From the NCBI RefSeq assembly GCF_004212215.1, contig NZ_QVFV01000007.1, forward strand, positions 127,650 through 191,577: a DNA stretch of 63,928 nucleotides, written 5' to 3'. Source of the stretch: Leptolyngbya iicbica LK (GTDB lineage: Bacteria; Cyanobacteriota; Cyanobacteriia; Phormidesmidales; Phormidesmidaceae). The notes beneath the pieces are model-generated. The model did no database searches. It was not told the origin of the DNA and saw only the letters and a program-made list of their open reading frames with translations. Made by a program: the position numbers and the translations under genes. Shown here piece by piece: positions 34,182 to 45,964 of the stretch (position 1 is the stretch's first letter; each line of letters begins with the position of its first letter).

Positions 34182-35108
34182 TTACTCCACTTCGATCGCC
34201 TCCTCAGTCTGGATAGTGCCTTGGGTGACCTCTAAATAAATGTGCTCTAGTTTGACGGGGCTACGGGAAATGGCATCGAGGGGCACCCCGTCGAACCGCG
34301 CCAGCAAATCGCGCAGTTCCAGCTCGTCGGGCACCCAGAAGGCCAGCTCTGAGCCATAGCGACGAGGCGTGAAGCCCAATTCCTGGGCGCGGGCGATCGC
34401 GGCCTCCGGTTCCTTCGTTTCCACCGTCATAATTTCGCAGGCGGGAATGCGCTGCCGCAGATCGGGCAAGGTCCCCTCAGTCAACAGCTGGCCCTGCTTA
34501 ATAATGCCGATGCGTTGACACAGTCGTTCCGCCTCGTCCAATAAATGAGTCGTGAGCAAAATGGTCATGCCCTGCTCGCGACTCAGCAGCCGAATCAAGT
34601 TCCACACTTCGTGCCGGGCTTCGATATCTAGCCCGGTGGTGGGTTCGTCGAGGATCAGTAATTTGGGCGAATGGACGATCGCCACCGCCAAGCTCAACCG
34701 CCGCTGCATCCCGCCGCTCAGGTTTTCCACTGGGGTGTGGGCGCGATCGCTCAAACTCACCGCCGCCAAACAGTCTTGAATGCGGAGCGATCGCCGTCGT
34801 CGGGGCAGCCCATAAATCTTGGCAAAAAATTGGAGGTTCTCTTCGCAGGTGAGCGATCGATACAGCAAATTTTCCTGGGGCATGACGCCAATCCAAGGTT
34901 TCGTCGCGCTTCCCGCCACCTGGTTATTGACCAGCACCTGCCCCTCATCTGCCTGCAACAACCCACAAATCAGATTAATGGTGGTGGTTTTGCCGGCACC
35001 GTTTGGCCCCAATAGCCCGTAAACTTCCCCCGGCAAAATGTCTAAACTCAGATTTTGCAGCGCTTGCCGCCCCCGATAGGTTTTGCTCAAATTGCGAATC
35101 GACAGCAT
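34182..35108 (-). CDS. ABC transporter ATP-binding protein
   Basis: About 308 residues; the nucleotide-binding subunit of an export-type ABC transporter (CcmA/DrrA-like). Walker A GLLGPNGAGKTTT, Q-loop MPQENLL, signature LSGGMQRRLSLA, Walker B LLILDEPT and the H-loop in LLTTHLLDEAERL are all intact. A C-terminal extension (about 215-308) is typical of DrrA-like proteins. The frame opens 39 codons earlier, but ATG 35108 has AGGA about 7 nt upstream on the minus strand and matches the family's MLSIRNLSKTYRG opening. No permease gene is adjacent in the window, so its partner must be elsewhere. Confidence 0.93.
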   Translation of the reverse strand: MLSIRNLSKTYRGRQALQNLSLDILPGEVYGLLGPNGAGKTTTINLICGLLQADEGQVLVNNQVAGSATKPWIGVMPQENLLYRSLTCEENLQFFAKIYGLPRRRRSLRIQDCLAAVSLSDRAHTPVENLSGGMQRRLSLAVAIVHSPKLLILDEPTTGLDIEARHEVWNLIRLLSREQGMTILLTTHLLDEAERLCQRIGIIKQGQLLTEGTLPDLRQRIPACEIMTVETKEPEAAIARAQELGFTPRRYGSELAFWVPDELELRDLLARFDGVPLDAISRSPVKLEHIYLEVTQGTIQTEEAIEVE

Positions 35109-35356
35109 GGCCTGTTCCTGACTGATGAGCCGGGCGCAAAGTTGCCCATTAGAGAAAAAGGCTATCACGCTCAGCTCGTGCTGACTGGTGGGGGCGGCTG
35201 CATTCAGACCCGTGGTAGCCCCCAACTGTCGGCTTTTTCACTCGGGCTGGCCAGTCGCTAATGTCCGTGGAATCACGATGATGAGTCGCCATCCACTAGG
35301 CGGACGCTGATCGATTCGGGCATCCTTAAACCAGATCATCCAAGGAGTGTCCTGCC

Positions 35357-37189
35357 GTGATGCTTGCCCTTTTGCCCAATACTGCGAGCTATATCCCCCA
35401 TGGGCATTGTTACCTGTGGCAAACACCGTTGGTAACGCTGCATGTCGCTGCGGATAGCTTGATTGCGATCGCCTACTTTTCCATTCCCCTTCTGCTGATT
35501 TACTTTATCCGGCAGCGCCGTGATCTACCTTTTCCGGGAATTTTTTGGCTGTTCAGCGGCTTTATTGTGTCCTGCGGCATTACCCATCTGTTTGCCATCT
35601 GGACGCTCTGGCACCCCACCTATTGGCTGTCGGGTGCCGCCAAAGCATTTACCGCTTGGATTTCCATCACGACCGCGATTTGGCTTCTACCATCGCTGCG
35701 TAAGGCGCTGGCCCTGCCTAGCCTGACCGAAATGCGTAACCTCAACGAAAACCTGCGACAAGAAATCGACGATCGCAAGCAGATCGAAATTGCCCTAAAA
35801 AAGAGCGAACTCAAGTTTCGCGGCATTTTTGACCAGATGTATCAATTCATCGGGCTGCTGACTCCCGAGGGCATCTTGCTAGAGGCGAATCGTGCGGCCC
35901 TCGAATTTGGCGGTACCGAGATCGAGGCGGTGCGGGGTAAACCGTTTTGGGAGATTGTCTGGTGGCAAATCTCGCCTCAAACTCAAGCAAGATTACGGGA
36001 GGCGATCGCCCAAGCGGCCCAGGGCGAGTTTGTGCGCTACGAAGTGGAAGTGCAAGGCGCTAACGGCGCTGTGATTACGATCGACTTTTCGCTGCGGCCC
36101 GTGTTGGATGAGGCGGGACAAGTCGTGTTGCTGATTCCTGAGGGGCGGGATATTAGCGATCGCATCCAAGCCGAAAAGGCCCTGCAACTGCAAGCCGTGA
36201 TTACTCGCAACATGGCCGAAGGCATCTGTTTAGTGCGGGCCGACAACGGCATCATCGTCTACGCCAACCCCAAATTTGAACGGATGTTTGGCTACGATTC
36301 CGGTGAGCTGAATGGGCAACCCGTCGCCGTTGTGAATCATCCCGATGCGGCGATGTCTCCAGAGGTCGTCATGGGCTCAATTCGAGATCTGGTGTTGGCG
36401 AAAAAAGAAGCCACCTATGAGGTTTACAACATCAAAAAAGATGGCACCCCGGTGTGGTGTGAAGCGACCACCGCCGTGTTTGACCATCCGGACTATGGCA
36501 CTGTGCTGGTGGCGGTGCAACAGGATATTAGCGATCGTAAAACCGCTGAAGCTCAAGCCCAAATCAAAGCCTCTTTAGAAGAAAAGGAACTCCTACTTAA
36601 GGAAATCTACCATCGTGTCAAAAACAACCTACAGGTTATCTTTAGCCTACTTAATTTACAGGCCAATAATTTAGACGATGCCCATGCCAAGGCGGCCCTG
36701 CGGGAGAGTCAGAATCGCATTATTGCCATGTCACTGGTTCACGAAAAACTCTATCAATCGAGTGATTTAGCTCATATCGAGCTCTCTGACTATGTGACCA
36801 GTTTGGCCAAAAGTCTGCTCGAAACCTATCGCTTTGAAGTCAGTAAAGTTTCTCTTGACATTAAGATTGCTCACTGTTGTCTAGACATTGAGACCGCAAT
36901 TCCTTGCGGCTTAATCCTCAACGAGCTCATTACCAATTCACTAAAATATGCGTATCCCCAGGGCCAACCCGGGATCTTGTCCATTGAGTCAAAGAGTTCG
37001 GATGCCCGACGCATTGTCCTGACGATTAGAGATAACGGGATTGGTTTATCCCCGGGCTTTGATCTACAACAGATATCTTCTTTGGGCCTCCAACTGGTCA
37101 GGAATTTAGCTAAGCAGCTGCGCGGTGAAATTCAGATTGTTCCCTCCTCTCTCGGCACCGAATTTGAGCTCTCTTTTCCACAACCATAA
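35357..37189 (+). CDS. Ethylene-receptor-like sensor histidine kinase
   Basis: A 610-residue membrane kinase. The first 110 residues form three helices matching the ethylene-binding domain of plant ETR1: D33, Y40, I43, P44, C73 and H77, with the same spacings as ETR1 D25, Y32, I35, P36, C65 and H69. The core reads IAIAYFSIPLLLIYF...IVSCGITHLF. C73 and H77 are the copper ligands in ETR1. Two PAS domains follow (about 150-270 and 280-395), then a HisKA_2-type kinase (phospho-acceptor H419 in EIYHRVKNNLQ) and HATPase (LILNELITNSLKYA; DNGIGL). AAGGAG (35342-35347) serves GTG 35357 or ATG 35360. The next gene, 9 bp on, encodes a REC-GGDEF-EAL protein, almost certainly its partner. Synechocystis has an ETR1-like kinase (SynEtr1), so ethylene sensing is an inference by homology. 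Confidence 0.93.
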   Translation: MMLALLPNTASYIPHGHCYLWQTPLVTLHVAADSLIAIAYFSIPLLLIYFIRQRRDLPFPGIFWLFSGFIVSCGITHLFAIWTLWHPTYWLSGAAKAFTAWISITTAIWLLPSLRKALALPSLTEMRNLNENLRQEIDDRKQIEIALKKSELKFRGIFDQMYQFIGLLTPEGILLEANRAALEFGGTEIEAVRGKPFWEIVWWQISPQTQARLREAIAQAAQGEFVRYEVEVQGANGAVITIDFSLRPVLDEAGQVVLLIPEGRDISDRIQAEKALQLQAVITRNMAEGICLVRADNGIIVYANPKFERMFGYDSGELNGQPVAVVNHPDAAMSPEVVMGSIRDLVLAKKEATYEVYNIKKDGTPVWCEATTAVFDHPDYGTVLVAVQQDISDRKTAEAQAQIKASLEEKELLLKEIYHRVKNNLQVIFSLLNLQANNLDDAHAKAALRESQNRIIAMSLVHEKLYQSSDLAHIELSDYVTSLAKSLLETYRFEVSKVSLDIKIAHCCLDIETAIPCGLILNELITNSLKYAYPQGQPGILSIESKSSDARRIVLTIRDNGIGLSPGFDLQQISSLGLQLVRNLAKQLRGEIQIVPSSLGTEFELSFPQP

Positions 37190-37198
37190 GGGTGACCC

Positions 37199-39304
37199 AT
37201 GCCACGCTGTACTGTTCTTGTCGTCGAAGACGAAGTCGTCATTGCGATGGATTTGCAGGCGACCTTAATCAAGCTGGGTTATGACGTGCCAACGATCGCC
37301 ACCTCAGGAGAAGACGCCATTCACCAAGCGATCGCCCTGCAGCCGGATATTGTCTTGATGGATATTCACCTGGGTCAGGGGCTCGACGGTATTGATGCCG
37401 CCCAGCAGATTGTCGAGACGTTAGAGATTCCCATCGTGTATCTCACCGCCTACGCCGACGAAGCGACCCTCACGAGAGCCCGCACCACCCTGCCGTTTGG
37501 TTATGTGCTCAAACCCTTTGAGCCGAGGGAACTCAAAGCTAATTTAGAAATCGCCTTCCACAAACACCAGTTTGATCAACTGCTCAAAGACAATCAGCAA
37601 TGGTTGTTAGGGGTTCTCACCAGTATCAGCGAAGGGGTGGCAGCGACCGATGCCGAGGGGTTGATTAAGTTTCTCAATCCCGTGGCGGAAGCATTGACGG
37701 GCTGGTCAGAGGCTGAGGCAATCGGGAAGTCCCCCGAAGAAGTCTTACGCCTGGTGCATGAATTTTCCCAAGAATTAGTGGAAAATCCGGTGATGCAGGC
37801 GCTAAAACGGGGCACGATAGTCAACGCCGATACCAGCATGTTTCTCGCCAATCGCGCTGGCGACACGATCCCTGTGATTCCCAGTACTGGACCGATTCAG
37901 ACGTCACAAGGCCAGATTCAAGGCGCTGTGGTGGTGTTTCGCGATATGAGCGAACAGCATCAGCTACAGGCGCAGTTAGAACATAATGCCATGCACGATT
38001 CGCTAACCCAGTTGCCCAATCGAGCCTTATTATTCGATCGCCTGCAACTAGCCATTGAGCGGGCCCAGCGATCGCCGACCTTCGGCTTTGCGGTCATGCT
38101 GTTAGACATTGATCGTTTTAAGTTTATCAACGACACCTTTGGCCATACGGTGGGCGATCAAGTCTTGGTGGCGGTGGCGCCCCGCCTGCTAGAGCAACTG
38201 CGATCGGTCGATACGGTGGCCCGGCTGGGCGGCGACGAGTTTGCCATTTTGCTCGAAGATGTGACCGACCCTAATGTCGCCTTAAAAACGGCTCAGCGCA
38301 TTATTCACACGATTAGTCAACCGCTGCCGCTCACCGCTCATACCTTGCAAGTTACCAGCAGTCTCGGCATTGTGTTAAGCACGCCGACTTACACGAATGC
38401 GTCTGATTTGTTGCGCGATGCCGATATCGCGATGTACCAGGCTAAAGCGAGCGGCGGTAACGGTTGCGAGTTGTTTGACAGCAGCATTCATCACCAGGCC
38501 AAAGACCGTATCCAGCAGGAGCAAGAACTGAGACGGGCGATCGCCCAGGCCGATTTTCAGGTTTACTATCAGCCCATTGTGGACTTAGCGACGCGCCAAC
38601 TTGTGTCCGCTGAGGCCCTGATTCGCTGGCAAAAACCAGGCAGTGGCCTGGTGCCCCCGGATGAGTTCATTCCCCTCGCTGAAGAATTGGGACTCATTGC
38701 GCCGATTGATCAGTGGGTGTTGCAAACCGCCAGTCGCCAACTGCAAGCCTGGCAACAGTTACAACCTGAAAATGCGCCGCCGCTCAAAATCAGCATCAAT
38801 CTGTCGAGCCAGCAAATCAACCAAAATGCCTCTCTGAATGAGTTAGAGACTGTGTTGCAGACGCTCGGCAGCGTTCGCCAGCATCTCCGGCTTGAAGTCA
38901 CAGAAAGCGTGTTCATTAAAAATATCGATCGCGCTACCGAACTCTTTCAGCGCTTTCAAGCCTGGGGGATGCAAATTTGTCTGGATGACTTTGGCACGGG
39001 GTATTCATCCCTCAGCTATTTGCATCGTTTGCCCATTGATGGGGTGAAAATTGATCGGTCTTTTGTCGCTGGCATGGATAGCGACCCCAACAAACTGGCA
39101 ATCGTGCGGGCGATCGTGGGGCTGTGCCACACGCTCAACAAAGCCGTTATTGCCGAGGGCATCGAAAACCATGCCCAACGCCGCTTGCTCATGGATCTGG
39201 GTTGCCAACAGGGCCAAGGTTATTTGTTTGCGCCACCGCTCCCGGCCGATCAGATCCCCGCGTGGTTAGACACCGATCCGGCGACGGCGACCCATCGCGA
39301 TTAG
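37199..39304 (+). CDS. Response regulator REC-PAS-GGDEF-EAL
   Basis: 701 residues. The receiver (about 1-120) is complete: acidic pair in VVEDEV, phospho-acceptor D55 (IVLMDIHLG), K105 (YVLKPFEP). It is followed by a PAS domain (about 130-255), GGDEF (about 265-425; LGGDEFAILLED, no change in the active motif) and EAL (about 435-690; SAEALIRWQ, LDDFGTGYSSLSYL). Both c-di-GMP synthesis and breakdown are chemically possible. The gene starts 9 bp after the ethylene-receptor-like kinase stop, with AGGGTG before the ATG, so the pair forms one operon and one phosphorelay. Net activity cannot be predicted. Confidence 0.95.
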   Translation: MPRCTVLVVEDEVVIAMDLQATLIKLGYDVPTIATSGEDAIHQAIALQPDIVLMDIHLGQGLDGIDAAQQIVETLEIPIVYLTAYADEATLTRARTTLPFGYVLKPFEPRELKANLEIAFHKHQFDQLLKDNQQWLLGVLTSISEGVAATDAEGLIKFLNPVAEALTGWSEAEAIGKSPEEVLRLVHEFSQELVENPVMQALKRGTIVNADTSMFLANRAGDTIPVIPSTGPIQTSQGQIQGAVVVFRDMSEQHQLQAQLEHNAMHDSLTQLPNRALLFDRLQLAIERAQRSPTFGFAVMLLDIDRFKFINDTFGHTVGDQVLVAVAPRLLEQLRSVDTVARLGGDEFAILLEDVTDPNVALKTAQRIIHTISQPLPLTAHTLQVTSSLGIVLSTPTYTNASDLLRDADIAMYQAKASGGNGCELFDSSIHHQAKDRIQQEQELRRAIAQADFQVYYQPIVDLATRQLVSAEALIRWQKPGSGLVPPDEFIPLAEELGLIAPIDQWVLQTASRQLQAWQQLQPENAPPLKISINLSSQQINQNASLNELETVLQTLGSVRQHLRLEVTESVFIKNIDRATELFQRFQAWGMQICLDDFGTGYSSLSYLHRLPIDGVKIDRSFVAGMDSDPNKLAIVRAIVGLCHTLNKAVIAEGIENHAQRRLLMDLGCQQGQGYLFAPPLPADQIPAWLDTDPATATHRD

Positions 39305-39489: not shown

Positions 39490-39855
39490 CTATGTTTTTG
39501 ACGGGCCCGCTTTGGTTGTGGTTACCTCAAAGGAAATTGAAGCGGAGCGCTTGGCTGGACTCGATGACAGTGGCGGAGCTAACCGCGGCGGAGCCGACAG
39601 TGGCGCATCGGTCGGGGTGGGAGGCGTTGGGCGGGTTGGTGGGACAAGAGGATCGCCAGGGACGGTAGCCGCCGTCTTGGGGGTGGTCAGGGATTGCCAA
39701 GCTTTGTAGTTAGAGGCGATCGCCAATCCCAAGCCGCCCAAAACCAGCCACGGCAACGAAAGCTCGGGCGTCCCAAACCAGCTTTGCTGACTCAGCCAGT
39801 CATAGCCCCGTGACGTGATGAAGAGCAAAATGCAGCACAGCAACCAAAGAGCCAT
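39490..39855 (-). CDS. Small membrane protein with proline-rich tail
   Basis: 121 residues with two predicted membrane segments (ALWLLCCILLFITS; LSLPWLVLGGLGLAIAS) and a low-complexity Pro/Thr/Ser tail (about 60-110) that would project into cytoplasm or periplasm. I recognise no family. A -35 TTGACA and weak -10 lie upstream, giving a leader of about 30 nt. It is divergent from map. The codon usage and hydrophobic pattern favour a real gene. Confidence 0.6.
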   Translation of the reverse strand: MALWLLCCILLFITSRGYDWLSQQSWFGTPELSLPWLVLGGLGLAIASNYKAWQSLTTPKTAATVPGDPLVPPTRPTPPTPTDAPLSAPPRLAPPLSSSPAKRSASISFEVTTTKAGPSKT

Positions 39856-40001: not shown

Positions 40002-40796
40002 GTGGAACAGCAAGAGGTCATTACGCTGCTATCGCGTCGGGAAATTGAAAAAATGCGTCAGGCTGGCCGCCTCGCCGCACAACTGCTGGACTACCTAGAA
40101 CCCATGGTGAAACCAGGGGTAAGCACCCAAGAATTGAATGATGCGGCTGAAGCCTGGACCCAAGAGCACGGCGCCAAGAGCGCGCCCCTTGGTTATCCTG
40201 GCGCGGTTGACCCGTTTCCCCGCTCCATCTGCACCAGCATCAACGAAGTGGTGTGTCACGGCATCCCCAGTGCGGATCAGGTGTTGCGCGATGGCGACAT
40301 TATGAATATCGATGTCACGCCGATTGTGGATGGCTACCATGGCGACACCTCTCGCACCTTTTTTGTCGGCACCCCTTCCCCCCTGGCCAAAAAGCTGGTG
40401 GAGGTGACAGAGGAGTCGATGTGGCGCGGCATTCGGGCGGTAAAGCCGGGGGCACGCATCGGCGATATCGGCGCGGCCATTCAAGAATATGCGGAAGCGG
40501 AAGGCTTTTCGGTCGTTCGCGATTTTGTGGGTCACGGCGTCCATCGCATCTTCCACACTGCGCCTCAAATTCCCCACTATGGCACAGCAGGGAAAGGCAA
40601 GAAACTGCGTAAAGGCATGGTGTTCACCATTGAGCCGATGATTAACGTGGGCACCTACGAAGTCGAGGTATTGGCCGATGGCTGGACTGCCGTGACTGCC
40701 GATCGCAAACTTTCTGCCCAGTTTGAGCACACCGTCGCCGTTACCGAAACTGGCGTCGAGGTTTTGACCCAAGCTGAAAGCAAAGTACCGGCATAA
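40002..40796 (+). CDS. map: Methionine aminopeptidase, type I
   Basis: 264 residues; removes the N-terminal methionine from nascent proteins. The dinuclear metal-site residues are present: D in NIDVTPIVDGYHGD (two aspartates), H in DFVGHGVHRIFH, E in FTIEPMINVG and E in AQFEHTVAV. The start codon is GTG at 40002 (MEQQEVITLLSRREIEKMRQ), agreeing with the family's N-terminus; no convincing ribosome binding site precedes it. The gene stands alone. A dispersed inverted repeat follows about 110 bp after its stop. Confidence 0.96.
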   Translation: MEQQEVITLLSRREIEKMRQAGRLAAQLLDYLEPMVKPGVSTQELNDAAEAWTQEHGAKSAPLGYPGAVDPFPRSICTSINEVVCHGIPSADQVLRDGDIMNIDVTPIVDGYHGDTSRTFFVGTPSPLAKKLVEVTEESMWRGIRAVKPGARIGDIGAAIQEYAEAEGFSVVRDFVGHGVHRIFHTAPQIPHYGTAGKGKKLRKGMVFTIEPMINVGTYEVEVLADGWTAVTADRKLSAQFEHTVAVTETGVEVLTQAESKVPA

Positions 40797-41642: not shown

Positions 41643-43061
41643 ATGAGTCGATCTTCACCGTGGTGTTTTGAGCGATCGCGCCGCCGCTTTTTACAAACTG
41701 TCCTCGCGGCGGCGGGAGCGGCCCAACTGCTCGCCAACTGTCAGCAGTCCGGTGCCCCCAAGCCTGACGATGCGATCGCGCCAGCCAACGACGCCTTTGA
41801 CTGGCGTTGCTGTGAAGGACAAACGCTCCATCTGTTATTAAACAGGCATCCGTGGACGGCGGGATTACAGCCTTACTTAGCGAATTTTGAAGCCCAAACC
41901 GGCATCCAAACCAACCTCACTATCGTGCCTGAGCCGGACTACTTTCAGGTGATGGAAACGGCACTACAAGATGAGACGATTGCGATCGATGTCTTTTTCT
42001 TACCGATGGATTCCACCGCTTATCGGCTGTGGCAAGGGTCGCTGCTGCAACCGCTGACGCCTTTGCTGAACGATGTGCGACTCACTGAGCCCAGCTACAA
42101 CCTGTTTGACTTTCCCGAAGGCTTTCGGCTGGCGGCTATGTATCCCCCAGAGGCGGAGTCACAGCAGCTGTTTGGCATTCCCATCACCTTTGAGTCGTAC
42201 ATCCTGTTTTATAACCAACAGCTGGTGAACCAGTATCTAGATGGGAGGGTGCCGCAAACGATGCCAGACCTGATTAGCGCGGCCCAAACCATCAATCAAC
42301 GCGGCCAAGGCGAGGTGTTTGGGGCGGTGATGCGGGGGGTGCGCTCAGACACGATTATTGACACTGTGACGGGGCTAGTGCTGAATAGCTGGGGCAGTCC
42401 AGCCACGCCGCTGCCCTACAACGTGTGGTTCGATCGCGACTGGCAACGCCCCCGCTTTACCGACCCCAAAATTGTGGCGGGACTCACGGCCTACGCCCAG
42501 CTCATGCAGGCGGGGCCGCCCAACATTCAGGCGATTGACTGGCCGGAGGCGACGCAGTTGTTTCAAAACGGGCAGGCCGCCTTTTATATTGATGCCAGTC
42601 TGTTTGGGCCAGGGTATGAGCAACCGGATTCCGCGATCGCGGGCAACGTGGGCTATACGCGACTGCCCCGCGTGCAGTCGGCGAGTCTGACCGGGCACTG
42701 GCTGTGGGGGCTTGGCATCGCTCAGCAATCGAGCCAGCCAGAGGCTGCCTGGCTGTTTGTGCAATGGGCTACCAGCCCCCAAATGGAACCGCTCATCTCC
42801 GTCAACACTGGCGGAGCCCCGCGCTTTTCTTCTTGGATTAATGCGTCTCCTTACACGGCAGCGATGAACATTGAATACGCGCTATGTGTGCAAAAAGCAA
42901 TGCAAACCTCCCGCCCCACCGCCGTTTTACATCCCCGCTGGAACGAAATTGCCCTGGCGATCGCTGACACCATTCAAGCGATTTATCAAGGTACGGACGG
43001 ATCCGCCGCCGCCGCCCAACTGCAAGCCCGGGTAGAGCAACTCATCGCTCAGGAGGCTTGA
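41643..43061 (+). CDS. Tat-exported solute-binding protein, family 1-like
   Basis: 472 residues. The N-terminus has a twin-arginine signal (SRRRFLQT, residues 12-19) and a hydrophobic stretch ending at C33 (LLANC), a possible but non-canonical lipobox. The mature part follows the sugar-type extracellular binding protein fold: LAFNFEAQTG-like motif (here YLANFEAQTGIQTNL), DVFFLPMD, LFGIPITFESYILFYNQQLV, and WGLGIAQQSSQPEAAWLFVQW. GGAAGG precedes the ATG. Its stop overlaps the next start (TGATG), so it is translationally coupled to a membrane GGDEF-EAL protein. No ABC permease or ATPase accompanies it, so a sensory role is likely; the ligand is unknown. Confidence 0.88.
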   Translation: MSRSSPWCFERSRRRFLQTVLAAAGAAQLLANCQQSGAPKPDDAIAPANDAFDWRCCEGQTLHLLLNRHPWTAGLQPYLANFEAQTGIQTNLTIVPEPDYFQVMETALQDETIAIDVFFLPMDSTAYRLWQGSLLQPLTPLLNDVRLTEPSYNLFDFPEGFRLAAMYPPEAESQQLFGIPITFESYILFYNQQLVNQYLDGRVPQTMPDLISAAQTINQRGQGEVFGAVMRGVRSDTIIDTVTGLVLNSWGSPATPLPYNVWFDRDWQRPRFTDPKIVAGLTAYAQLMQAGPPNIQAIDWPEATQLFQNGQAAFYIDASLFGPGYEQPDSAIAGNVGYTRLPRVQSASLTGHWLWGLGIAQQSSQPEAAWLFVQWATSPQMEPLISVNTGGAPRFSSWINASPYTAAMNIEYALCVQKAMQTSRPTAVLHPRWNEIALAIADTIQAIYQGTDGSAAAAQLQARVEQLIAQEA

Positions 43062-45964
43062 TGTTGGTGTCGTTGCGGTGGTTAAAGACAATTCGGTCAC
43101 AACTGCTGTTTGGCTTTGGGGCGATTTTGCTGGTCAGCTTCACCAGTTCGGCGATCGGCTATCGCAGCTTGGCCCAACTGCGCAACACCAGCCAAACCCT
43201 GCTCGAACGGTCAGCGCGAGTGCGTGAGCTGAGTCTAGAACTCCAGCGCAATTTTTTGACCGCTCGGCACACCGAAGAGGTCTACCTCAACAGTTGGAAA
43301 GACCGCACCGCCCCCACCGACGCCCAAACCCTCGTATCAGAAAACCAGGCAGCCTTGAGCGCGGCCCGCGCCAATCTGGCCGAACTGACCCAGTTAGAGG
43401 GGCCAGACTCTGACCTGGCTCCTGAACTGGCATTGCTGCAATCCCTGTTTTTGAATTACGAGTCGGCCTTTAAAACCACCACGCTCCAGATTCAAACGAG
43501 CGCTCAAGACTACGCTTTGGAAGATCGCCTGCAGCAGCTATTTGCGACGATCGCCGCCACCAACAACAATGCCGATCGCGATTGGCAAACGACGCTCTGG
43601 ATGATTGCCGCAAAAGAACAAGCCTATTTCAACTCGGGGGATGCTCAATATCTCACCGATGTACGCAATGAACTGGAGCAACTGGCAACCGCCTACTCAC
43701 CCACTGCCGCCCCTGATCTTTCCCGCGAAGTCGAAGACTACCTGGCCGACTTAAACACCGCACTGCTGCTAGAACAGCAAATTGAAGTCAACACCATTGT
43801 CGCCGACAGCATCAACCGCGATATCGATCGCATCATTCATGAAATTGAAGCCATCACCCAGACCCGCGCTCAACAAGCCCGCCTAGAGCTGGCCAAAACC
43901 GCCCGTCAAAGCAACGCCGCCCTCCTCGCCACCGCGCTCACGGCATTGGGACTGACCGTCTGGGCCAGCCTGTGGTTGAGTAGTCGCATTTTGCGGCCCA
44001 TCACCGCGCTCAAAACAGCGGCAGAACGGGTGAGTGCTGGAGATTTAAATACCCAGCTACAGCTCGCTAGCCAAGATGAGTTTGCGATCGTCGCGGCGAC
44101 GTTTAACCAGATGGTGGCGCAACTCCGCCATACCCTCGTTGATCTTGAAACCCGCATTGCGGAAAGAACCGTGGCCCTGGAGACCTCGAATCAATCGCTC
44201 GAAGAAAAAACTCAGTCCTTAGAACAAACCCTCAAACAACTGCGAGATAGCGAAAATAACTACCGATCGCTCCTCGAACATTTGCAAGCGGGCGTGGTGG
44301 TGCATGACCGTGATACCCACATTGTGTTGTGCAACCAAATGGCCGCCCAACTGTTGGGCATTGCTGCCGACCAGCTGCTCGGTCGGGGGGCGTCGCACCT
44401 CGCTTGGCCTTTGATTGACGAATTGGAAGCTCCCCTGACCGTTGATCAATACCCGGTTAATCAGGTCATCAGCACCCAACAACCGCTGCACAACTATGTT
44501 GTCGGCATTCAACAAGGCGACCCTGTGCAAACTGTCTGGGTCTTGGTCAATGCGTTTCCAGTGCTGGACGACCAATTGACCCTCCAGCAGGTGGTGGTGA
44601 CGTTTAGTGACATCACCGAGCGCAAGCACAACGAAGAGAAGCTGCGCCACCGCGCCCTGCATGATGTTTTGACCAACCTCCCCAATCGCACGTTGTTGGT
44701 CGAACGGCTCGAACATGCCCTGCAGCAAAACCGTCGCCAGCCAGACCAGCAGTGTGCTGTGCTGTTTATCGACCTCAACCGCTTTAAAGTCATTAACGAC
44801 AGCTTGGGCCACGCGATCGGCGACCAACTGTTGATCAAAGTGGCCAAAATTTTGTTGGCACAAGTGCGCAATGTTGACACCGTGGCGCGGTTAGGCGGCG
44901 ATGAATTCGTGATTTTGCTAGAGCAAGTGCAAAGTGTGCAAGAAGTCATCCACGTGGTCGAACGCATTCAAACGCAGCTGCAACGGCCCATGACGCTGCG
45001 AGGCTACACGATGTTTACCTCTGCGAGTATTGGCATTGCCCTCAGCAACAACACCTATCAACGAGGGCACGATATCTTGCGGGACGCGGATAATGCGATG
45101 TATCGGGCCAAGGCCAAAGGCGAATCGGGCTACGAAATTTTTAATCCTGAAATGCACGCTCGGGCCATGCAGCTGTTGAATTTGGAAACCGATTTGCGGC
45201 GGGCGATCGCCGACCAGGCCTTTTGTCTGCGCTATCAGCCCATTGTTGATCTCGCGTCGGGCAAGATCATCGGGTTCGAGTCGCTCGTGCGTTGGCAGCA
45301 TCCCGACCGGGGCTTAGTGTCGCCCGATCAGTTCATTCCCCTGGCTGAAGAGACGGGGTTGATTATCCCGCTCAGTGAGTGGATTGTGCGGTCGGCCTGC
45401 GAACAAATGAGCCTTTGGTCCCGTGATCCTACGCTGCCAGCAGATTTCACCATGAGCGTCAATATTGCGGCGGCCTCATTTCAAAATCCGCGCTTTGTTC
45501 ACGAGCTGGATCAGGCTTTGACCCAAACCCAGCTATCCCCCAGTCGCCTCAAATTAGAGGTGACGGAAAGCGTACTGCTCGAAAATATTGACAGTGTGCG
45601 AGAAACACTGGCCCAACTCAAACAACGGCAAATCGAAATCAGTCTGGATGATTTTGGCACGGGTTACTCATCCCTCAGCTATCTCAAACAACTGCCTATT
45701 GATACGCTCAAGATCGACAAATCTTTCATCGATAGCCTGACCGAAGATGGTGACGCCAGTTTAGTCGAAGCCATCATTCAAATCGCGAACTCTTTGACGA
45801 TGACAGTCGTGGCTGAAGGGGTGGAAACTGCAATGCAGCGATCGCGGCTACAGCAACTCGGGTGCGGCGCCATCCAAGGGTATTTGATCAGTCCACCGAT
45901 GGATGGTGCGGCGGCTGAGAACTTTATGCGCACCTTTCAACCCCATGACTGGCAGCACGGTTGA
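43061..45964 (+). CDS. Membrane sensor HAMP-PAS-GGDEF-EAL protein
   Basis: About 967 residues. TM1 (about 14-36), a helical periplasmic sensor region of about 250 residues, TM2 (about 290-310; ALLATALTALGLTVWASLWL), HAMP, a coiled coil, PAS (about 390-515), GGDEF (about 535-700; LGGDEFVILLEQ) and EAL (about 710-960; FESLVRWQHPD, LDDFGTGYSSLSYL). Both catalytic domains keep their signature motifs. ATG 43061 overlaps the stop of the solute-binding protein gene by one base, and AGGAGG (43051-43056) sits just upstream. This suggests the binding protein docks on the periplasmic helices and tunes c-di-GMP turnover. Confidence 0.93.
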   Translation: MLVSLRWLKTIRSQLLFGFGAILLVSFTSSAIGYRSLAQLRNTSQTLLERSARVRELSLELQRNFLTARHTEEVYLNSWKDRTAPTDAQTLVSENQAALSAARANLAELTQLEGPDSDLAPELALLQSLFLNYESAFKTTTLQIQTSAQDYALEDRLQQLFATIAATNNNADRDWQTTLWMIAAKEQAYFNSGDAQYLTDVRNELEQLATAYSPTAAPDLSREVEDYLADLNTALLLEQQIEVNTIVADSINRDIDRIIHEIEAITQTRAQQARLELAKTARQSNAALLATALTALGLTVWASLWLSSRILRPITALKTAAERVSAGDLNTQLQLASQDEFAIVAATFNQMVAQLRHTLVDLETRIAERTVALETSNQSLEEKTQSLEQTLKQLRDSENNYRSLLEHLQAGVVVHDRDTHIVLCNQMAAQLLGIAADQLLGRGASHLAWPLIDELEAPLTVDQYPVNQVISTQQPLHNYVVGIQQGDPVQTVWVLVNAFPVLDDQLTLQQVVVTFSDITERKHNEEKLRHRALHDVLTNLPNRTLLVERLEHALQQNRRQPDQQCAVLFIDLNRFKVINDSLGHAIGDQLLIKVAKILLAQVRNVDTVARLGGDEFVILLEQVQSVQEVIHVVERIQTQLQRPMTLRGYTMFTSASIGIALSNNTYQRGHDILRDADNAMYRAKAKGESGYEIFNPEMHARAMQLLNLETDLRRAIADQAFCLRYQPIVDLASGKIIGFESLVRWQHPDRGLVSPDQFIPLAEETGLIIPLSEWIVRSACEQMSLWSRDPTLPADFTMSVNIAAASFQNPRFVHELDQALTQTQLSPSRLKLEVTESVLLENIDSVRETLAQLKQRQIEISLDDFGTGYSSLSYLKQLPIDTLKIDKSFIDSLTEDGDASLVEAIIQIANSLTMTVVAEGVETAMQRSRLQQLGCGAIQGYLISPPMDGAAAENFMRTFQPHDWQHG

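Follow-up and report, generated by a model that had tools for sequence, protein, structure and literature searches.

In the literature consulted, bacterial ethylene receptors have had their downstream path described for very few organisms. In Synechocystis, the SynEtr1/UirS-UirR-LsiR system affects phototaxis and biofilm formation (PMC3546692, PMC6682694). In Azospirillum, a fragment with the first 130 residues of AzoEtr1 binds ethylene when made in yeast, removal of the receptor has the same effect as ethylene for AzoEtr1 and for SynEtr1 alike, and cyclic diguanosine monophosphate (c-di-GMP) was lowered by ethylene in metabolomics by a route that is not known (PMC11819568). A diguanylate-cyclase gene and a starch phosphorylase gene are grouped with GeiEtr2 of Geitlerinema sp. 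PCC 7105 (PMC6682694), and a maltodextrin or glycogen phosphorylase gene lies upstream of AzoEtr1 (PMC11819568). Here we compare these systems with a gene pair of Leptolyngbya iicbica LK (assembly GCF_004212215.1; 5.72 Mb in 16 contigs), located on a 63,928-nucleotide stretch of contig NZ_QVFV01000007.1 (the window), in which a histidine kinase with an ETR1_N domain is followed by a REC-PAS-GGDEF-EAL response regulator. With a probability of roughly 0.6, we interpret the pair as a two-component system that responds to ethylene by adjusting c-di-GMP and that arose when a HisKA_2/REC-PAS-GGDEF-EAL pair had its sensor exchanged.

Like SynEtr1/UirS, the window kinase is a histidine kinase that carries an ETR1-type membrane domain and has a linked regulator, but SynEtr1/UirS has a bilin-binding GAF domain, and its described output comprises two regulators, one of AraC type and one of PatA type, together with a small RNA, with no c-di-GMP enzyme (PMC3546692, PMC6682694). 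An earlier reading of the window from its letters alone (the sequence-only reading) had held that SynEtr1 is linked to other response regulators, which these AraC-type and PatA-type partners bear out (PMC3546692). A Pfam scan found no GAF domain in the window kinase, which thus lacks the bilin-GAF feature of SynEtr1/UirS. AzoEtr1 shares the ETR1-type domain, PAS, kinase and adjacent response-regulator gene, but the regulator AzoRRetr1 has 135 amino acids and, as far as it is described there, no other recognisable output motif (PMC11819568), unlike the REC-PAS-GGDEF-EAL protein of the window. GeiEtr2 is a protein of 1025 amino acids with PAS/GAF domains and its own receiver, whereas the window kinase has 610 amino acids, is of the HisKA_2 type and lacks both GAF and receiver.

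The ETR1_N kinase and the adjacent regulator

Both proteins are encoded in single open frames, with the following features:

35342-35347, + strand: AAGGAG, ribosome-binding-like site preceding the kinase GTG start (read directly)
35357-37189, + strand: sensor histidine kinase, 610 amino acids, ETR1_N-PAS-PAS-HisKA_2-HATPase_c (Pfam, single open frame)
35429-35716, + strand: ETR1_N ethylene-binding-type membrane domain, amino acids 25-120 (Pfam PF25487, E 1.2e-38)
35828-36535, + strand: two PAS domains of the kinase, amino acids 158-269 and 288-393 (Pfam)
36602-36829, + strand: HisKA_2 phosphoacceptor domain, amino acids 416-491 (Pfam, 96.3 bits)
36611-36613, + strand: H419 codon of the kinase HisKA_2 domain (read in sequence)
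36911-37183, + strand: HATPase_c catalytic domain, amino acids 519-609 (Pfam)
37199-39304, + strand: response regulator, 701 amino acids, REC-PAS-GGDEF-EAL (Pfam, single open frame)
37214-37546, + strand: receiver domain of the regulator (Pfam)
37361-37363, + strand: D55 codon of the regulator receiver (read in sequence)
37616-37963, + strand: PAS domain of the regulator (Pfam)
37988-38461, + strand: GGDEF domain with RSVD I-site and intact GGDEF (Pfam, motif check)
38522-39238, + strand: EAL domain containing EAL, DDFGTGYSS and all other motifs checked for (Pfam, motif check)

The sequence-only reading had placed both frames, six ETR1 residues at exact spacing, a nine-base gap after the kinase stop, an intact receiver with both c-di-GMP motifs, and the phosphoacceptor positions H419 and D55, and each of these was found where it had put them. 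The finding lies beyond chance, as the kinase matches ETR1_N with 131.7 bits, where the cut-off is 27, and both genes show low nonsynonymous (dN) relative to synonymous (dS) divergence from the closest relative. All seven binding residues are kept (D33, Y40, I43, P44, I70, C73, and H77), and when the aligned domain stretch is numbered from its first position, the invariant residues D, Y, I, C, and H fall at 25, 32, 35, 65 and 69, which are the ETR1 numbers. Apart from D25 and C65, these are the numbers that we take ETR1 to have, as is I62, the position corresponding to I70 and likewise an isoleucine. Ethylene binding in ETR1 requires seven residues (PMC6682694, PMC11819568), and D25 and C65 are named among them (PMC11819568). 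By its sequence, the sensor end of the kinase is a canonical ETR1-type ethylene-binding domain. The catalytic end is that of a HisKA_2 histidine kinase, with H419 and a HATPase_c domain in place.

The closest relative of the pair is encoded by a genome of the same genus code (G001), which shares an identical contig with Halomicronema sp. CCY15110. Its kinase is 84% and its regulator 86% identical to those of the window, and both genes are under purifying selection, as dN is far below dS (dN/dS 0.095/0.813 for the kinase and 0.083/0.949 for the regulator).

The ETR1-type domain might sense another signal, such as copper, redox/peroxide, or another small alkene or gas, and control c-di-GMP through it. 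The ligand is not readable from sequence, and 30 of 203 ETR1_N rows in the survey described below do not show the full set of six residues of the sequence-only reading (two of them only from cut frames), so the site is not retained in every copy of the domain; all six are present in the other 173. However, the window kinase retains all seven positions, its ETR1_N domain is 49% identical to the sole ETR1_N place in the plasmid record of Azospirillum brasilense Sp7, which we take as the proven binder AzoEtr1, and the ETR1_N stretch is itself under purifying selection relative to G001 (dN 0.073, dS 0.905). We consider sensing of another signal unlikely, and ethylene remains the preferred ligand.

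The regulator has the features of a c-di-GMP enzyme under receiver control, with D55, the GGDEF motif, the RSVD I-site and the EAL motifs all intact. The AAGGAG site ends nine bases upstream of the kinase start codon, and AAGG, a candidate ribosome-binding sequence for the regulator, overlaps the kinase stop codon. Upstream of the kinase lies a gene for an ATP-binding cassette transporter ATPase on the opposite strand (34182-35225), and downstream of the regulator lies a 121-amino-acid frame, also on the opposite strand and without Pfam match (39490-39855), while the next same-strand gene (40002-40796) begins 697 bases past the regulator. Given these flanking strands and the spacing, the simplest reading is that the kinase and regulator form a two-gene unit. 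A promoter scan returned no promoter-like sites against 2.7 expected, and a terminator scan returned 10 terminator-like sites against 5.4 expected, none of which follows the regulator on its strand. Elsewhere in the window, a solute-binding protein gene (41643-43061) has a four-base overlap with a HAMP-PAS-GGDEF-EAL gene (43058-45964), which encodes a second c-di-GMP enzyme of the window, perhaps under binding-protein control.

Probable kinase-regulator partnership and sensor exchange

Apart from the window kinase, no HisKA_2 kinase was found in the window genome. Across 57 family genomes, a full-length HisKA_2 match occurs in 24 and a relative of the REC or REC-PAS part of the regulator, with any output domain (E 1e-30), in 25; the two co-occur in all 24 HisKA_2-bearing genomes, a count that is uncorrected for kinship and disregards two genomes' partial HisKA_2 matches (G002 and G034). 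Adjacency was assessed within the stretches fetched from these genomes, and domain calls beyond the Pfam-scanned proteins rely on our own profiles, built from the window and the fetched proteins. Each of the 28 distinct ETR1_N-HisKA_2 kinases in the sample has a same-strand receiver gene after it, which encodes GGDEF-EAL in seven cases, GGDEF in one, a histidine kinase in 15 and neither in five. The pair analysis omitted L147 and pairs with a regulator score below 150.

The nearest family regulators, 57-61% identical over REC-PAS, adjoin HisKA_2 kinases with PAS or REC sensors, not ETR1_N. By our own profiles, 11 such pairs occur in 10 genomes (L317-L322 and L325-L329), and they resemble the window pair in kinase core, regulator architecture and gene adjacency but differ in the sensor. 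In the REC-PAS tree, the window, L037 and these 11 family pairs form one clade with support 100/100, and the same 13 rows group in the HisKA_2 tree with weaker support (92/88, under the starred level); the trees omitted L147, L308, L312 and L316 because of long branches or poor filling, as well as regulators shorter than 300 amino acids and kinase fragments shorter than 150 amino acids. The kinase core and regulator thus travel together while the sensor differs, as the 11 pairs without ETR1_N share clades with the window. On this phylogenetic evidence, the conserved part is the kinase-regulator pair and the exchanged part is the sensor, with the direction of exchange being one that we infer. 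When the trees are labeled for an ETR1_N kinase with a GGDEF regulator, four changes are counted in the REC-PAS tree, at least three of them forced by well-supported branches, and three in the HisKA_2 tree, at least two of them forced. This wiring has probably been gained or lost repeatedly, given the forced changes on both trees.

The 11 family pairs also bear on the role of the two PAS domains of the window kinase, which could be its working sensor (for light, redox or a cytoplasmic ligand) with the ETR1-type domain mainly a membrane anchor, since the same kinase core and regulator are there combined only with PAS or REC sensors. On the other hand, an anchor alone would not need the ligand residues, yet they are intact in the window kinase and in L037, and we regard a PAS-driven kinase as improbable compared with one driven by its ETR1-type domain.

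The sequence-only reading had treated the two proteins as partners, and the adjacency kept in relatives and the parallel phylogeny (with the HisKA_2 branch at only 92/88) agree with it, suggesting that they are probably cognate. The adjacent regulator might nevertheless be a misleading neighbor, with phosphate passing elsewhere, as cross-talk is possible in a genome with 73 HATPase_c matches (70 of them over the cut-off). Against such an alternative stand the unique HisKA_2 kinase, the 9-nt gap, the co-occurrence in 24 of 24 genomes and the matching trees, which make it very improbable. Chance pairing in this kinase-rich genome is weakened only modestly by a proximity control, in which a GGDEF gene lies on the same strand within 2.5 kb of two of three ETR1_N kinases and of five of the 67 others (Fisher p 0.025 on a tiny sample; the three HATPase_c rows below the cut-off were left out). 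We regard the pair as a genuine and probably cognate system in which known families are newly arranged, but its ethylene-type sensor has so far been observed only in a small group.

Within the genus, G015 has a regulator relative (59%) at a contig end beside a HisKA_2 domain fragment, the sensor of which is not readable because the contig ends there; a second HisKA_2 kinase of G015, without ETR1_N, sits at the end of another contig. G023 also has an ETR1_N-HisKA_2/REC-PAS-GGDEF-EAL pair, which groups with L053 and L056 in a separate clade. The pairs of L048, L053 and L056 were considered as orthologs of the window pair and rejected, as the trees place them in that separate clade. In several cyanobacteria, including Nostocales (L160, L179, L181, L184, L189-L191, and others), an ETR1_N-HisKA_2 kinase precedes a REC-PAS-histidine kinase, which shows that regulators vary at their output end as well.

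ETR1_N joined to c-di-GMP enzymes across cyanobacteria

ETR1_N matches occur in 44 of the 57 family genomes and in 88 of 386 phylum-sample genomes. Our survey covered 204 ETR1_N genes (200 distinct proteins), comprising 43 from the family, 80 from named genomes, 80 from the phylum sample and the window gene. It was non-random: the family stretches were hand-chosen, the named-genome loci are the best 80 of at least 559 matches, and the phylum-sample stretches were picked among the matches listed, mostly one per genome. L131, L186 and L168 repeat L041, L047 and L049 and were dropped from the count of 200, and L147, the same record as L048, was dropped from the residue check onward; L257 yielded no ETR1_N frame and L224 yielded two.

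A c-di-GMP link was found for 33 of the 200 distinct genes, comprising 10 direct fusions (six with GGDEF and four with GGDEF-EAL) and 23 genes with a GGDEF/EAL gene in an operon-like run. By source, with repeats included, the linked genes number 17 of 43 in the family, 6 of 80 in named genomes and 10 of 80 in the phylum sample, in addition to the window; four of the last 10 are fusions (L188, L218, L240, and L246). Pfam confirmed ETR1_N and GGDEF in all 10 fusions, and nine have all seven binding residues, the exception being L007 of the window genome, in which N replaces D and the ETR1_N match reaches only 37.9 bits. In L230, one of the 23, a short GGDEF frame comes after a short ETR1_N frame, an arrangement that may represent a broken fusion.

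The smallest fusions are two-domain ETR1_N-GGDEF proteins of about 270-310 amino acids, present in at least 17 of the 57 family genomes (L071 6564-7439, L072 6075-7007, L342-L354, L356, and L357). Among 17 further family frames of about 300 amino acids, selected by length, 15 are such proteins by our own profiles and two run off the contig end. D-x6-Y-x2-IP and C-x3-H are present in all 15, and a GGDEF-type motif in 14. These 15 proteins and the 10 direct fusions converge in supporting a route from ETR1_N to c-di-GMP.

A hybrid-kinase arrangement is also found in the window genome, where the second receptor (L006) has the order ETR1_N-GAF-HisKA-REC and is followed by a REC-GGDEF-EAL gene. This locus resembles that of GeiEtr2, and a phosphorylase-like gene (L006 8663-11206, by eye) adjoins the receptor. 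The gene order of L006 recurs in L061, L064, L075, L216, L219, L229 and L234, with one binding residue changed in L061 and L075. L007 (5094-7022; G000:C1:359794-360000), L358, L359 and L360 carry a divergent ETR1_N-like half domain fused to GGDEF-EAL, in which the usual N-terminal stretch is missing and Y-x2-IP is kept; by eye, L358-L360 have N for D as in L007. Alanine replaces the proline of Y-x2-IP in some ETR1_N-PAS-PAS kinases (L005, L049, L058, L060, L062, and others), and ethylene binding by these kinases appears doubtful from their residues.

Taken at face value, the ETR1_N-domain tree requires 20 switches in the c-di-GMP label, of which starred branches force only three, and eight switches in the fusion label alone, of which only one is forced; the domain is too short for this tree to serve in counting origins. 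As judged from domain architecture, ETR1_N is joined repeatedly to c-di-GMP enzymes in cyanobacteria, down to a two-domain fusion, and this is a stronger and more general point than the window pair. There may be an even chance that cyanobacteria use c-di-GMP as a regular ethylene output and that the ETR1-type domain was wired to c-di-GMP enzymes several times independently. The routes, about which we are equally divided, would be HisKA_2 sensor exchange as in the window, hybrid kinases with REC-GGDEF-EAL neighbors, and direct fusion. A search of open-licence literature yielded no description of ETR1_N-GGDEF fusions or of a pair of the window type, which is no proof of absence, and the word "ethylene" is absent from the main text of a 2022 review on c-di-GMP input stimuli (PMC8846402).

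Proposed mechanism and significance

In the proposed mechanism, the membrane kinase would bind ethylene via copper held by C73 and H77 of the ETR1-type domain, and binding would alter autophosphorylation of H419. Phosphate would then pass from H419 to D55 of the adjacent regulator, whose net diguanylate-cyclase or phosphodiesterase activity would move c-di-GMP and thereby motility or biofilm behavior. By analogy, ethylene probably lowers kinase output, since receptor loss mimics ethylene in AzoEtr1 and SynEtr1. The pair would have originated by a swap of the sensor end on the HisKA_2/REC-PAS-GGDEF-EAL pair conserved in this cyanobacterial family. As for a downstream effector, no PilZ match was found in the window genome despite 43 GGDEF matches, and ComFB was found five times; we propose no c-di-GMP effector because ComFB is, in the available source, described as a receptor of cyclic diadenosine monophosphate.

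Several points weigh against this interpretation. The usual family pair has other sensors, so the ancestral signal of the regulator need not be ethylene, and the two PAS domains of the kinase could be a real input. The sign of the c-di-GMP change is unreadable because both GGDEF and EAL are intact in the regulator. The AlphaFold structure model shows three helices where the membrane domain of the kinase should have them (23-53, 60-82 and 90-118), with a predicted local distance difference test score of only about 50-65 in the membrane part, too weak for an argument about a copper site, and a solved-structure search with the ETR1_N alignment found no relative. The sequence-only reading had asked for the same pair in close relatives; it is present in G001, but the orthologous pair was seen in only two of the six genus genomes, the window genome (G000) and G001. 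Enrichment within the window genome is small in number, and 167 of the 200 distinct ETR1_N genes have no c-di-GMP gene fused or in an operon-like run (some stretches end at contig ends). The earlier suggestion of a distinct wiring holds for the new arrangement of known families but not for its uniqueness, as the diguanylate-cyclase neighbor of GeiEtr2 is in print (PMC6682694) and many other ETR1_N/c-di-GMP links exist.

The window pair and the other ETR1_N/c-di-GMP joins make a direct link from a gas hormone to a second messenger testable. The residue-complete pair and the single-polypeptide fusions of an ethylene site with a cyclase would permit a direct in vitro test, and the two-domain ETR1_N-GGDEF proteins of about 300 amino acids would, if the reading is true, be one-piece ethylene-gated diguanylate cyclases. 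Such a compact gas-gated c-di-GMP switch would be available for engineering, and a link between ethylene and c-di-GMP, if true, could explain the effects of ethylene on cyanobacterial phototaxis and biofilm formation.

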